The notes beneath the pieces were generated by a model. It did not search any database. It was not told the DNA's origin and worked only from the letters and a program-made list of their open reading frames with translations. A stretch of DNA of 64,000 bases from Solobacterium sp. (lineage in GTDB: Bacteria; Bacillota_I; Bacilli_A; Erysipelotrichales; Erysipelotrichaceae): the NCBI GenBank assembly GCA_017941735.1, contig JAGAVW010000002.1:1-64000 (forward strand), given 5' to 3'. Position 1 is the stretch's first letter. Each line of letters starts with the position of its first letter. This document shows, one piece after another, positions 2 through 38,001 of this stretch. The position numbers were made by a program, and so were the translations under genes.

Positions 2-166
2 AAAAAAGAACATCCATGCCATAAATCAAAATTATGGACGATTACACGCATGGGTGCAGATATTAAGATTAAGTGTCATGGGTGTGGCGCAGTCATTATG
101 TTTCCTAGAAGTGAATTTGAGCGGAAATTAAAAAAAGTAATTGAACACCAAGAAGGTGCAGAATAA
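2..166 (+). CDS. DUF951 family protein, C-terminal part
   Basis: The window opens inside an ORF in frame 2 that ends with TAA at 164-166. The 54 visible residues contain HPCHKSKLWTITRMGADIKIKC, broken here as HPC then K-x-W, followed by a CxxC knuckle (C-H-G-C) and a charged tail. This matches the small DUF951 family that commonly lies directly before ychF in Bacillota. The function is unknown; the CxxC pair and upstream Cys suggest a metal-binding knuckle (inference). It sits 12 bases before ychF and is probably co-transcribed with it. The start lies outside the window. Confidence 0.8.
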   Translation, partial: KKEHPCHKSKLWTITRMGADIKIKCHGCGAVIMFPRSEFERKLKKVIEHQEGAE

Positions 167-178
167 GGAGGAGAAACT

Positions 179-1279
179 ATGCCATTAACAGCCGGTATCG
201 TCGGATTGCCTAATGTCGGAAAATCAACGTTATTTAACGCAATCACCAATAGCCAAGTCTTAGCGGAAAACTATCCTTTTGCGACGATCAATCCAAATGT
301 AGGTGTGGTAGAGGTTCCTGATGAAAGAATGGACCATATTGTAGAACTCTTCCACCCAAAGAAAACCATTTATACAACCTTTGAGTTCACCGATATTGCA
401 GGACTAGTCAAAGGGGCATCGCAAGGAGAAGGTTTAGGAAACCAATTCCTATCCCATATTCGGCAAACCGATGCGATTTGTCATGTGGTGCGTTGTTTTG
501 AAGATGAGAATATTACCCATGTTGAAGGAAGCATCGATCCATTACGTGATATTGAAGTCATTAACTTAGAGTTATGTATTGCGGATTTAGATACCGTAAA
601 TAATCGGATTGGGAAAGTGGAACGTAAAGCCCAAACCAAAGAAAAAGACGCGGTCCAAGAATATGAAATTCTAAAGAAACTCAAAGAGGCTTTAGAAGCA
701 GGTACACCTGTTCGTTTATTGAATCTCAATGAGAATGAACTTGATTATTTAAAAGGCTTTTCGTTATTAACAGCTAAGCCAGTTATCTATATTGCGAATA
801 TGAGTGATGAAGAAATCGCAAGTCCAGAAAACAATACTTACTACCAAACCGTACGCGATTTTGCGGAAAAAGAAGGAAGCAGTTGTATTGCGATTTGCGC
901 AAAAATTGAAGAAGAATTATCGGGCATGGAGAAAGAAGAAAAAGAAGCATTCTTAGAAGACTTAGGCATTCATCGCTCGGGCTTAGAAGAAATCATTCAA
1001 GCCGCATACCATTTATTAGGTTTGCGTACATTCTTTACGGTAGGCGAACCAGAATGTCGCGCTTGGACCTTTAAAGAAGGTATGAAAGCCCCACAATGTG
1101 CAGGTATCATTCATACAGATTTTGAAAAAGGATTTATCAAAGCTGAAATCTATAGTTATGAAGATTTGATGGAATATAAAAATGAAGTGGCCCTCAAAGA
1201 ACATGGGAAAATACGATTGGAAGGAAAAGAATATGTGATGCAAGATGGCGATATCGTTTTCTTCCGGTTTAACGTATAA
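179..1279 (+). CDS. ychF: Redox-regulated ATPase/GTPase YchF (Obg family)
   Basis: This is a 366-residue Obg-family P-loop NTPase, the usual length for YchF/OLA1. The Walker A motif GLPNVGKST is at residues 9-17, a switch/DxxG element is seen as DIAGLVKG, and the C-terminal third is a TGS-like domain ending in DIVFFRFNV. YchF proteins prefer ATP and associate with ribosomes; they are implicated in translation and stress responses. The start is ATG 179 after a strong AGGAGG. It follows the DUF951 gene closely and precedes darA by 27 bases, so an operon is likely. Confidence 0.97.
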   Translation: MPLTAGIVGLPNVGKSTLFNAITNSQVLAENYPFATINPNVGVVEVPDERMDHIVELFHPKKTIYTTFEFTDIAGLVKGASQGEGLGNQFLSHIRQTDAICHVVRCFEDENITHVEGSIDPLRDIEVINLELCIADLDTVNNRIGKVERKAQTKEKDAVQEYEILKKLKEALEAGTPVRLLNLNENELDYLKGFSLLTAKPVIYIANMSDEEIASPENNTYYQTVRDFAEKEGSSCIAICAKIEEELSGMEKEEKEAFLEDLGIHRSGLEEIIQAAYHLLGLRTFFTVGEPECRAWTFKEGMKAPQCAGIIHTDFEKGFIKAEIYSYEDLMEYKNEVALKEHGKIRLEGKEYVMQDGDIVFFRFNV

Positions 1280-32288: not shown

Positions 32289-33243
32289 AGTGATTGCGGC
32301 GCCTCTAGCAGGCATCTCAAATCCTGTGTATCGAAAAATGTGCCATGATTATGGCGCATCTTTATGTGTGTCAGAAATGATTAGTGATAAAGCATTGCAC
32401 TATCAAAATAGAAAGACACAAGATATGTGTGCAGTATTAGAACAAGAGCATCCAGTTTCCTTACAATTGTTTGGCGCAGATACGGAAACGATGGGGGAGG
32501 CAAGTGCGTACCTAAGTACGCATACGACATGCGATATCATTGATATTAATATGGGATGTCCGGTTACCAAGGTGATTAAAGCCCATGCGGGTAGTGATTT
32601 ATTGCGAAATCCAGATTTAGCAATTGCCATCGCAAAAAGTGTTGTCGAACATACCGATCGGCCTGTTACCGTTAAGATGCGAGCAGGATGGGATCAAGCA
32701 CATATCAACTGTGTTGAAATTGCAAAAGGATTAGAAGCAGTTGGCGTATCAGCAATTGCGATTCATGGACGTACAAAAAACCAAATGTATGAAGGACAAG
32801 TGAATTTAGAATATATCAAAATGGTAAAAGAAGCAGTTAATATACCTGTCATTGGCAATGGGGATATTCGTAGTGTAGAAGACGCAAAACGCATGTTAAA
32901 GGAAACGGGTTGTGATGCAATTATGGTAGGTAGAGGTTTATTAGGCCGACCCTTCTTTATCCAAGAACTTGTTGCGGGTTTAGAAGGAAAAGCTTATGAA
33001 GAACCGAATTATCAAACACGTATTATGCTCGCTAAACAATACGCAAAAGAGCTATGTGATTACGAAGGGGAATATCCAGGAATTCATATGATGCGTAGTA
33101 TGGGAACGTGGTATATTGCTGGCTTACCACATTCTGCAAAATATAAAAATAAACTCTCGCAAGTGGAGAGTTTAGAAGAATTCAACGGGCTATTAGATAC
33201 CTATCAAACACTCCTCAATTCTTTAGAGGATGATGGTAGATAA
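32254..33243 (+). CDS. dusB: tRNA-dihydrouridine synthase (DusB type)
   Basis: The 329-residue FMN enzyme reduces uridines in the tRNA D-loop. It has VIAAPLAGISNPVYRKM, the active-site Cys in DINMGCPVTKV (about residue 101), the HGRTKNQMYEG loop and the FMN phosphate site IPVIGNGDIRS with GCDAIMVGRGLLGRPF. ATG 32254 lies 35 bases inside hslO. The last 21 bases overlap the convergent AEC transporter gene. A decayed second dusB copy lies at 35752-36258. Confidence 0.96.
   Translation: MLKIGNVLLKNKVIAAPLAGISNPVYRKMCHDYGASLCVSEMISDKALHYQNRKTQDMCAVLEQEHPVSLQLFGADTETMGEASAYLSTHTTCDIIDINMGCPVTKVIKAHAGSDLLRNPDLAIAIAKSVVEHTDRPVTVKMRAGWDQAHINCVEIAKGLEAVGVSAIAIHGRTKNQMYEGQVNLEYIKMVKEAVNIPVIGNGDIRSVEDAKRMLKETGCDAIMVGRGLLGRPFFIQELVAGLEGKAYEEPNYQTRIMLAKQYAKELCDYEGEYPGIHMMRSMGTWYIAGLPHSAKYKNKLSQVESLEEFNGLLDTYQTLLNSLEDDGR
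33138..33172 (-). terminator. Terminator of the AEC transporter located inside dusB
   Basis: Read on the minus strand, AACTCTC (33172-33166) pairs with GAGAGTT (33158-33152) around a 7-base loop and is followed by TATTTTTATATTTT. It is about 50 bases past the transporter stop, within dusB coding sequence. Confidence 0.7.
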
Positions 33244-34149: not shown

Positions 34150-34180
34150 AGCGAAACGAATTGAAAAGGGAAGAATGCGT

Positions 34181-34186
34181 TATAAT
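34181..34186 (+). promoter_or_regulatory. Leaderless -10 box of the small HD gene
   Basis: A perfect TATAAT ends seven bases before ATG 34194. No Shine-Dalgarno is present, and an upstream in-frame start at 34161 would lie before the promoter. Confidence 0.7.
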
Positions 34187-34193
34187 AGAAACG

Positions 34194-34634
34194 ATGATTT
34201 ATACCAAACAAATTAAAAAGGCAATCAAGATCGCCTTTGATGCCCATGAAAAGCAAAAAGATAAAGCAGGTTTGCCTTATATTCTGCACCCCATTCACTT
34301 AGCAGAACAAATGGATACAGAAGAAGAAATCATCGTGGCATTCCTACATGATGTAGTTGAAGATTCTTCTTATACATTCGAAGATTTAGAAAGTTTTGGC
34401 TTTTCGAAAGAAGTGATGGATGCTTTGAAATTATTGACACATGCGGAGAGTATTCCGTATAGAAAGTATATAGAGGAGATCAAAACAAACCCCTTAGCAC
34501 GCAAGGTCAAATTAGCAGATCTTGCCCATAACAGTGAGATCTCGCGTATTGAAAATCCAACCCAAAAAGATTATGAACGGATTCAAAAATATGCAGAAGC
34601 TATACAGGTATTACAAGGAGAAAAAGAAGTATGA
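34194..34634 (+). CDS. Small HD-domain hydrolase (SpoT/MESH1-like)
   Basis: The 146-residue protein consists of a single HD domain of the RelA/SpoT hydrolase type: AFDAHEKQKDKAGLPYILHPIHLA, the HD pair in VAFLHDVVEDS (about residues 54-64) and VKLADLAHNSE (about 105-115). It has no synthetase or ACT domain. It may hydrolyse (p)ppGpp or a related nucleotide, as small alarmone hydrolases do, but this is inferred. It is predicted leaderless and overlaps the next gene by four bases (ATGA). Confidence 0.82.
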   Translation: MIYTKQIKKAIKIAFDAHEKQKDKAGLPYILHPIHLAEQMDTEEEIIVAFLHDVVEDSSYTFEDLESFGFSKEVMDALKLLTHAESIPYRKYIEEIKTNPLARKVKLADLAHNSEISRIENPTQKDYERIQKYAEAIQVLQGEKEV

Positions 34635-35350
34635 AAAAGGCAACTGTAAAACGATTAGCTAGTATTGTAGGACTATCGATCTTATTGGTAGGCTGTACAA
34701 CCAAACCAAGCACAGAAACACAAGAAGCAGGAACAGGCACTGCCAATGTAGTAGGTGGTTGGACTGTTTATGAAGACAACGCCCCACAACTTACAAGTGA
34801 CGAACAAAAACGTTTTGAAGAAGCACTGGAAGGCTTAACGGGTGTAGGCTATACACCAATCCAAGTGCTTGCAAGTCAACTAGTTTCTGGAAATAACTAT
34901 GCTTATCTAGCAAAAGGTACCACCGTTACGGCACAACCAAAGACAAGCTACTATGTGGTTGTAATTTATGAAGATTTACAAGGCAAAAAAGAATTAAAGA
35001 CGATTAAAGAAATAGATTTAGCAGATATCAAAGTATTAGACAACAAGGCAGAAGGGCTTCTTGGTGGATGGCAAGTACCAGCAGATCGAAAGGGAAGTTT
35101 ACCACAAGAAGCTAGTGCTTCCTTTGAAAAGGCAACCCAAAAACTCATGGGTGTAAGTTTGAACCCACTTGCGTTATTAGGAACACAAGTTGTATCTGGC
35201 ACAAACTACATCGCTATCTGTGAAGGAACCACCACAACGCAAAATCCAACTCCAGCACTCTATGTATTGAAGTGGTATGAAGATTTACAGAAGAACGTTG
35301 AGGTATTAGATAATTCGATTCTCGATTTAGAGTATTACGTAACAGAATAA
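34631..35350 (+). CDS. Lipoprotein with two cystatin-like repeats
   Basis: The 239-residue protein has a lipoprotein signal (SILLVGC, Cys22 as the lipid site), a short Thr/Glu linker and two repeats of about 95 residues beginning GGW at 42 and 145. Each repeat has a helix with FE-x-A, then a QxVxG hairpin (QLVSG 83-87, QVVSG 186-190) followed by N-Y, and ends in Y-E-D-L-Q strands. QxVxG is the papain-binding loop of cystatins. It is coupled to the HD gene (ATGA) and ends at a terminator. Protease inhibition is inferred. Confidence 0.75.
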   Translation: MKKATVKRLASIVGLSILLVGCTTKPSTETQEAGTGTANVVGGWTVYEDNAPQLTSDEQKRFEEALEGLTGVGYTPIQVLASQLVSGNNYAYLAKGTTVTAQPKTSYYVVVIYEDLQGKKELKTIKEIDLADIKVLDNKAEGLLGGWQVPADRKGSLPQEASASFEKATQKLMGVSLNPLALLGTQVVSGTNYIAICEGTTTTQNPTPALYVLKWYEDLQKNVEVLDNSILDLEYYVTE

Positions 35351-35354
35351 TGAA

Positions 35355-35376
35355 AACGAGCTACGGCTCGTTTTTT
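35355..35376 (+). terminator. Intrinsic terminator after the cystatin-like lipoprotein
   Basis: AACGAGC (35355-35361), a TACG loop and GCTCGTT (35366-35372) are followed by T residues to 35376. Confidence 0.9.
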
Positions 35377-35539: not shown

Positions 35540-35751
35540 AAGGGACAGTCGTGAATGAATACAATTCCAACATGTATGCGGAGACCCTTGATAACCTTTT
35601 ATTATTGAGTGATTAATCGGTTATTGAAACGATGCAGTTGAGAAAGATTATGGAAGTCGAAGCGGCACGCCTTTGTGCGCAAAATGCAACGGAAGAAGAA
35701 ATCAAAGAGATACAAATGTATATGGAACAACGGGAAGAATATGCAAAAGCA
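35536..35751 (+). pseudogene. gntR remnant, inverted middle piece
   Basis: The plus strand encodes a segment matching residues 65-136 of the intact GntR: GEGTVVN, AETLDNLLLLSD, a TAA stop at 35614-35616, then MQLRKIMEVEAARLCAQNAT and MYMEQREEYAKA. The last stretch is nearly identical to the intact copy at DNA level. It is in the opposite orientation to the C-terminal piece and runs in frame into a dusB remnant through a shared GCAAAAGCAAT. Confidence 0.85.
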
Positions 35752-36258
35752 ATGGAAGAAGTGGGTGTATCTGCAATTGCTGTTCATGGTCGAACAAGAG
35801 CGCAAATGTATGAAGGTAAATCCAATAATGCTTATAGCAAGATGGTAAAATAAAATGTATTGATACCTGTTATTGGAAACGGAGATATTCGTAGTTATGA
35901 AGATATGCAACGAATGTTAGAGGAAACAGGTTGCGATGCTGTGATGATTGGGCGCGGCCTATTAGGAAAACCATTTTTTCTAGATGAATTAGTTGCACGT
36001 TCTAAAGGAGAAACTTATACGTTACCAACTTATTTTGAACGTATTGAATTATCTTATGCTTATGCCCAAAAATTATGTGCGTATATTGGTGAAGTACGTG
36101 GTATGAAAATGATGCGTGGTATGGCAATCTGGTACATTGTAGGAATGCCAAATAGTGCAGAATGTAGAAGAGAATTATCGATGATGAAAGAATTGCAAGA
36201 GATGCATGAAATCTTAGATGATTTTAAGAAACAACTTAGTGAACAGGAGGCTTTATAA
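35752..36258 (+). pseudogene. dusB remnant, C-terminal half
   Basis: About 168 codons match the second half of DusB at 32254: EEVGVSAIAVHGRTRAQMYEG, then an in-frame TAA at 35851-35853 where the intact gene has a Glu codon, then IPVIGNGDIRSYEDMQRML and GCDAVMIGRGLLGKPFF to the end. The N-terminal half with the catalytic Cys is missing. Divergence from the intact dusB is substantial, so it is an old or imported paralogue. Its end supplies the ribosome site of the next gene. Confidence 0.88.
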
Positions 36259-37296: not shown

Positions 37297-38001
37297 TTAC
37301 TCGATTGTTGAATGTTTAATGATTGCTTCTTCTACTCTTTTTAAATGGGCGTTCATCATATCTGCTGCGCGATCACTATCATGGTCCATAATTGCTTTCA
37401 TAATTTCTTCGTGGTAGAGAGAAGTATTACGACTGGTTTCTTCACTTGCGGAAGTACTTTGATGCATTGCCATAGTTTTTTGAATGGTTTGGATAAATTG
37501 AACAAATAATTCATTATGACTACCTTTGGCAATCGCTAAGTGGAAATTACGATCGGCATCATATTTCTTTTGTATATTTTCTGGGGTTTGTATTGCTTTT
37601 GCGTATTCTTCCCGTTGTTCCATATACATTTGTATTTCTTTGATTTCTTCATCTGTCGCATTTTGCGCACATAAACGGGTTGCTTCGGTCTCCATTAACT
37701 TGCGTAATTGCATCATTTCTAAATTTGTATTATCGCTTAATAAAAATAAGGTATCTAAAGTATCAGCGATAATACTTGTATTTAATGTATTGATAAAAGA
37801 ACCTTCCCCATGCTTGGTAATGACTAAACCTTTGGCAGTAAGAATCTTTAATGCTTCCCGTACAGCCATTCTTGAGCAATGATACGTCTCGGATAATTCA
37901 TATTCATTAGGAAGCTTATCACCAGATAAAAGTTCTTTCTTACGTATCTGTTCAATGATATCTTCGACGATTTGTTCACTTTTACTTATATGATCACTCA
38001 T
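37297..38001 (-). CDS. GntR family regulator (FadR/FCD subfamily)
   Basis: The 234-residue regulator has a winged-helix N-terminus (LPNEYELSETYHCSRMAVREALKILTAKG split around SRMAVREA; GEGSFI wing) and an FCD effector domain (about 95-230). FCD proteins often bind a small organic acid or sugar acid with a metal. It starts at ATG 38001 after GAGGT. Two GTTGTnnnACAAC palindromes lie in the region shared with the ulaG operon, one beside its own start, so it probably represses both itself and that operon. A shattered paralogue lies at 35378-35751. Confidence 0.92.
   Translation of the reverse strand: MSDHISKSEQIVEDIIEQIRKKELLSGDKLPNEYELSETYHCSRMAVREALKILTAKGLVITKHGEGSFINTLNTSIIADTLDTLFLLSDNTNLEMMQLRKLMETEATRLCAQNATDEEIKEIQMYMEQREEYAKAIQTPENIQKKYDADRNFHLAIAKGSHNELFVQFIQTIQKTMAMHQSTSASEETSRNTSLYHEEIMKAIMDHDSDRAADMMNAHLKRVEEAIIKHSTIE

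Follow-up and report, generated by a model that had tools for sequence, protein, structure and literature searches.

Gene, modules and genomic neighborhood

The window (the whole stretch of DNA analyzed, 64,000 nucleotides) harbors an open reading frame on its forward strand that starts with ATG and encodes a protein of 239 residues (34631..35350). On the basis of the reading frame, family profiles compared with the PDB, and AlphaFold2 models, it is described as the gene for a tandem cystatin (stefin-like) lipoprotein; all features of the gene given below lie on the same strand. The protein begins with a signal sequence (34631..34696, assigned by sequence pattern) that ends in the lipobox LVGC (residues 19–22), the last residue of which is Cys22 (34694–34696). 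An earlier note on this DNA had proposed a lipoprotein attached through this cysteine, and at the level of sequence the proposal is borne out.

Two modules of 96 residues each, 36% identical to each other, make up most of the protein. Module 1 (residues 36–131, 34736..35023) was delineated by repeat comparison and an AlphaFold2 model of the module alone, and module 2 (residues 139–234, 35045..35332) by repeat comparison and the full-length model. In both, GGW precedes a short helix, after which come the motif QLVSG or QVVSG, extended by x-N-Y, and then a YEDLQ hairpin. In module 1, GGW provides the N-terminal trunk glycines (residues 42–44, 34754..34762), QLVSG forms the first hairpin loop, L1 (residues 83–87, 34877..34891), and EDLQG, with a stefin-type central leucine, the second, L2 (residues 114–118, 34970..34984). 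The corresponding elements of module 2 are GGW (residues 145–147, 35063..35071), QVVSG (residues 186–190, 35186..35200), and EDLQK (residues 217–221, 35279..35293). Module 1 has no cysteine and module 2 has one, leaving no within-module cysteine pair. The two tandem QxVxG repeats claimed beforehand are thus present; YEDLQ likewise occurs in each repeat, but it does not end the repeat as had been stated, since it belongs to the second hairpin loop and the last strand follows.

A terminator-like stem-loop with a T run lies directly 3′ of the stop codon (35352..35375). Beside the cystatin gene, positions 35673–35938 hold a chimeric remnant, in which 80 bp that are 94% identical to part of a GntR-type regulator on the other strand (37592–37671) run into approximately 200 bp that share 75% identity with the dihydrouridine synthase gene (32718–32918). 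The remnant, after which come an incomplete second dus frame and another AEC-type transporter (named by eye), looks like the product of a local duplication and rearrangement.

On the 5′ side, a gene for an HD-domain hydrolase (34161..34634, forward strand) shares an ATGA overlap with the cystatin gene. Residues 21–103 of this SpoT-like protein match the RelA/SpoT model TIGR00691 with an E-value of 1.2e-14. The earlier note regarded the two genes as coupled, which holds for their overlap; functional coupling as a general feature is rejected because the HD gene is absent beside relatives. Among 130 loci searched with phmmer (E ≤ 1e-3), an HD-like frame was found only at the window’s own locus, present three times in this set (L001, L045, and L048), and at L055, where it lies on the opposite strand and does not adjoin the cystatin gene. 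None of the 12 tandem loci of the genus (L002–L013) has such a frame, and at least 500 nt of upstream DNA were covered for 81 of the 84 named-locus proteins. The HD gene is probably an incidental operon partner. No general neighbor family was found across 94 loci (L001–L014 and L051–L130), the widest being an ABC ATPase (assigned by eye) at 11 of them.

Relationship to cystatins

Taken alone, the window protein is given no name by any Pfam or NCBIfam model. Two single-sequence matches were discarded: one to the Pfam family UDG-inhib_P56 (E = 0.0028), which is under the cut-off of that family, and an uninformative OmpA-lipoprotein match over residues 3–66. Comparisons with the PDB were made with profiles built from 23 relatives (A1), 40 domains (A2), and 115 domains (A5), as well as with a smaller and wider profile (A6) that also includes four modules found by tblastn on plasmids of Bradyrhizobium, Aureibacter, and Persicobacter. 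L020 and L023 were excluded as overlapping fragments of proteins that were already in the set; A1 was built without L026, and A2 without L025 and L026. For A5, 163 of 173 domains were within the score and length limits, and the 109 of these kept at less than 70% identity were joined by two window domains and four genus domains.

Cystatins are top-ranked in all four profile searches. They account for 11 of the 12 matches of A1 at E ≤ 10 (best 1.9e-4), for the 13 best of 24 matches of A5 (best 2.5e-4), and for the 17 best of 24 matches of A6, which reaches 1.2e-6 with the secreted Fasciola stefin 6i1m; the best cystatin match of A2 has an E-value of 1.7e-4. Chorismate mutase AroH is also among the matches, at 0.033 with A5 (next after the cystatins) and 0.19 with A6. 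The same Fasciola stefin is reached over a bridge of two legs, from the window to a Bradyrhizobium protein (tblastn, E = 3e-7) and from the latter alone to 6i1m (phmmer, E = 0.0011).

The family remains below the cut-off of the Pfam Cystatin model PF00031, which gave weak fragments at most in 40 genomes and no match above cut-off in any of them; the best score of a related protein is 19.2 bits, against a cut-off of 22.2. PF00031 is also absent among the 25 families listed, of 44, in a Pfam scan of the 115 domains. This cut-off is a detection rule and not a biological feature. In the scan, SQAPI, a cystatin relative, matches 10 of the 115 domains (best 1.3e-4) and is the sole family in more than two domains among the matches listed.

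The AlphaFold2 model of module 1 alone (115 sequences; pLDDT 91.8, pTM 0.83) has a strand, a helix, and four strands, which is the cystatin order. The full-length model (18 sequences) has an overall pLDDT of 84, with most 10-residue blocks of both modules above 90 and values of 77–88 around the inter-module linker. The predicted fold is that of a cystatin, a helix wrapped by an antiparallel sheet, although in both models the helix is short (10–12 residues) and shorter than usual.

In a Foldseek search with module 1, the best PDB matches are cystatins (best E = 0.0034), with no PDB match at E ≤ 0.001. VIA-align, run over the 1000 best Foldseek candidates, places module 1 closest to tarocystatin of the papain complex 3ima (Z 9.4, rmsd 2.3, 78 aligned), CsStefin-1 (Z 9.3, rmsd 2.3, 82 aligned), potato multicystatin (Z 9.1 and 8.8 for 4lzi and 2w9p), Dictyostelium cystatin A2 (Z 8.7), and stefin B of the papain complex 1stf (Z 8.4, rmsd 2.9, 82 aligned). 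Monellin and Affimers, which share the cystatin fold, are interspersed lower in the ranking. For the full-length model, the best VIA match is again potato multicystatin (Z 8.4). Its TM-scores in the structure search are low, and it aligns to single cystatins over a range that spans both modules (42..233); in the model, this could reflect an exchange of N-terminal strands between the modules or an artefact of modelling tandem repeats.

Structure prediction against cystatin folds had been set beforehand as the test on which the proposal could fail; a cystatin fold was predicted, and cystatins are its best matches. The reading of the fold is upheld because prediction and the independent sequence-profile comparison both give cystatins. 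The window protein is thus very probably a member of the cystatin superfamily (MEROPS I25).

The residues expected of a protease-binding wedge are strongly conserved. Gly52 and Asn54 are present in 115/115 domains, Gln48 and Val50 in 114/115, Gly7 in 111/114, and Trp9 in 107/115. The second loop contains Leu in 87/115 domains and Gly in 105/115, module 2 of the window protein carrying Lys where most domains have Gly. In the cystatin wedge, the conserved glycine belongs to the trunk and QxVxG to the first loop. Because the genome collection was scanned with a seed pattern containing QxVxG, conservation was counted apart on the 91 of 173 domains that do not match the seed, which is the fair count; QxVxGxN is kept in 88 of these and GG[WYF] in 82. 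A convergent or accidental resemblance, in which a short QxVxG match falls within an unrelated beta-rich repeat, is highly improbable. QxVxG is indeed short by itself, and single-sequence searches are uninformative, but four profiles and two structure models indicate cystatins, and the motif is beyond chance because its place in the fold is that of the cystatin motif and 88/91 non-seed domains retain it.

Beyond homology and fold, the protein shares with the superfamily the N-terminal trunk glycine and, in both modules, QxVxG in the first hairpin loop. Like type 1 stefins (I25A), it has a central leucine in L2 and no disulfides; stefins are intracellular and devoid of a signal peptide, whereas this protein carries the lipobox LVGC. 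Type 2 true cystatins (I25B) have a tryptophan in L2 and two disulfides, in contrast to EDLQG and EDLQK here, and type 3 kininogens (I25C) have tandem modules that are type 2-like, while those of the window protein are tandem but not type 2-like. The conserved leucine of the stefin L2 is described as a difference from true cystatins in the part of PMC9986714 drawn on. The protein falls outside all three classical types because its export and lipidation signal separates it from stefins and the lack of an L2 tryptophan and disulfides separates it from types 2 and 3. Judged by its sequence, the most fitting description is that of a lipidated tandem stefin-like cystatin.

Distribution and history of the family

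Matches were obtained in 17 of 40 genomes. These are the window’s own genome and 16 of the 23 further genomes of its genus; the 16 genomes sampled from other families of the order gave none. In wider samples, 3/395 genomes of the class and 2/392 of the phylum match, the window’s own genome being included in each count. A scan of a named genome collection confirmed 161 stretches, and the loci described are the best 80 of these, labelled Solobacterium, Erysipelotrichaceae, Lachnospiraceae, Oscillospiraceae, Clostridia, Coriobacteria, and others. According to their titles, 57 of the best 80 of 161 are from the ruminant gut (34 name a ruminant host and 23 bear the label RUG, which we take to mean rumen uncultured genome), one is from horse through its species name, and 22 are silent; title labels were shortened by hand, and the ruminant share is a raw count with no background rate, not an enrichment.

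The tandem arrangement predominates, with two modules in 78 of the 84 named-locus proteins, three in one (L055), four in three (L070, L075, and L101), and one in two; 66 of the 84 match the lipobox pattern. Several variants accompany these forms. Four sister-genome members (L015, L016, L022, and L025) are single-module proteins of 114–120 residues with no lipobox match, and contig 50 of the sister genome G013 holds three matches within approximately 6.5 kb. Fusions among the 23 members of A1 involve Lipocalin_4 in two, DUF4367 in two, and DUF4430 in one; by eye, the fused relatives are L004 and L008 (in their C-terminal parts), L021 and L024, and L006.

The domain tree is built on few columns, and 40 of its 108 inner branches are well supported. 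Of the 25 rows in the set that contains module 1 of the window protein, 22 are first modules; of the 22 rows in the set with its module 2, 20 are second modules. Both sets mix Erysipelotrichaceae, Lachnospiraceae, and Coriobacteria. Over the whole tree, first and second modules do not form two clean clades (14 and 12 changes). This pattern fits an old tandem duplication, subsequent spread from lineage to lineage, and additional rounds of duplication.

No phage-borne copies were found in the phage collection, while tblastn identified distant relatives in three plasmid records. One locus (L134:2986–3255) encodes a single-module stefin-like protein with no signal peptide on a Bradyrhizobium plasmid typed as conjugative and is flanked on both sides by transposase genes.

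Putative target and comparison with known systems

It is proposed that the protein is exported and lipidated at Cys22, which would hold it at the outer face of the membrane, where a linker (residues 23–40) would carry the two stefin-like modules. In each module, the wedge would combine a Gly-Gly trunk at the N-terminal end with the QxVxG loop and the stefin-type second loop with its central leucine, and would block the active-site cleft of C1A (papain-family) cysteine proteases outside the cell. Candidate targets are rumen ciliate or host cathepsins, forage proteases, and proteases of other microbes. The anatomy of the protein would suit a lipid anchor on Cys22 and a role facing proteases. It is probably an inhibitor of external papain-like proteases and would in this way shield the cell from them; modules of this kind serve animals, plants, and parasites as inhibitors of papain-like enzymes.

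The retention of a cystatin fold for another use, such as a binding scaffold, adhesion, or action on another protease class, as in fetuin-B, latexin, and monellin, is quite unlikely. Those three proteins and Affimers are among the structural matches, and some relatives are fused to Lipocalin_4, DUF4367, or DUF4430, but in the window family few residues are as constant as those of the wedge, and none of fetuin-B, latexin, monellin, and Affimers is known to retain the full wedge.

The argument for an external protease target draws on the peptidases of the bacterium itself. The window’s own genome (94% complete) contains no C1 papain (PF00112) above the Pfam cut-off, its C1-type gene encoding a PF03051 (PepC-type) protein of 450 codons. 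Among 23 other genomes of the genus, presence of the cystatin does not track presence of a C1 match: the cystatin is found without a C1 match (E ≤ 0.001) in G001, G004, G006, G007, G012, G017, G018, G019, and G020, and a C1 match without the cystatin in G008, G011, G014, and G022. An exogenous target is suggested because PF00112 above cut-off is lacking in the assembly, and this lack, together with the uncoupling of C1 and cystatin within the genus, would make a protease outside the bacterium the more likely target.

Control of self-proteolysis, in which the protein would inhibit surface cysteine peptidases (C11, or C1 of sisters) of its own cell or of close relatives, is improbable against this background, although the genome does encode two clostripain-like C11 proteins of membrane type (E = 7.0e-42 and 1.9e-36 for frames of 865 and 875 codons, respectively), whose N-terminal parts resemble membrane segments by eye. 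C11 belongs to another clan and is not known as a target of QxVxG inhibitors. Also in favor of an endogenous target are sister genomes with C1 matches above cut-off, among them G003, G009, G013, and G021, and the fluke inhibitor FhCyLS-2, which acts on both host cathepsins and those of the fluke, as stated in the portion of PMC9986714 consulted.

With an external protease as the preferred reading, rumen ciliates are one possible source, alongside other microbes, the host, and plants. In the sections of PMC6925433 used here, the Entodinium transcriptome is rich in transcripts of cathepsins B and F and includes a C01A subfamily with high expression, for which a role in degrading the protein of microbial prey is proposed. 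A rumen-fluid study argues that cysteine peptidases are of greater importance than serine peptidases for protozoal ammonia formation and cites others for cysteine peptidases as the major bacterial type in the rumen; of the three inhibitors compared there, the one against cysteine proteases lowered protozoa the least (PMC6908469, in part). Putative action against ciliate cathepsins in particular is rather doubtful. Equally tentative is the broader picture in which herbivore-gut Erysipelotrichaceae, Clostridia, and Coriobacteria would have spread lipidated tandem stefins as an anti-digestion surface shield against the papain-type cathepsins of grazing ciliates; the shield as a bacterial counterpart of plant phytocystatins, aimed at a protozoan predator, is a similarly doubtful proposition. 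Should a cathepsin of ciliates or of the host prove to be the target, the family would bear on bacterial survival of predation and on ruminant nitrogen turnover; if not, the cystatin wedge has been retained for another purpose. The family is unnamed in the annotation libraries searched and offers a testable case, with high-confidence modules, an intact wedge, and many gut bacteria that carry it.

Cystatin modules like those of the window protein occur in plant multicystatin (4lzi and 2w9p) and tarocystatin (3ima), and multicystatin is also tandem; plant multicystatin and phytocystatins have more repeats, no known lipid anchor, and a longer helix. Chagasin (I42), a bacterial cysteine-protease inhibitor, has the same kind of target but a different fold. 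Also comparable with the window protein are a single-module protein of the Bradyrhizobium plasmid pNK6d, 40% identical to module 1 and 24% to module 2, and a two-module protein of Aureibacter tunicatorum. Both share GGW and a first loop of the form QVVNG/QVVAG-x-N, whereas no signal peptide or lipobox is seen in their translations.

Stefins and cystatins were described in a few bacteria, with a patchy distribution, by Kordis and Turk in 2009, who named stefins in Clostridium, Oribacterium, and Eggerthella and a triplicated cystatin domain in Polaribacter and proposed that bacterial cystatins are emergency inhibitors or a defense against host proteases (PMC2784779, in part). In the portion of that paper drawn on, Firmicutes stefins are confined to Clostridia, in contrast to the tandem lipoprotein of Erysipelotrichaceae and others, and the words lipoprotein and tandem are absent from the corresponding main text. 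A 2012 review asks for more experimental data on bacterial cystatins (PMC3594739, in part), and in what was consulted of these two sources the bacterial proteins are known in silico, with a function only proposed. Searches of the open-licence PMC literature turned up no publication on a bacterial cystatin that is both lipidated and tandem; bacterial stefins were already reported in 2009 (PMC2784779), and it is the lipidated tandem form that is new.

The best PDB match of the widest profile, FhCyLS-2 of Fasciola hepatica (6i1m), has in common with the window protein a stefin-type module, a signal peptide, the Gly-Gly trunk, and the central leucine of L2, its first loop being QVVAG (PMC9986714, in part). 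According to the same portion of that source, FhCyLS-2 consists of one module with two disulfides and is freely secreted. In contrast, the window protein lacks a within-module cysteine pair and combines two modules with a predicted lipid anchor.
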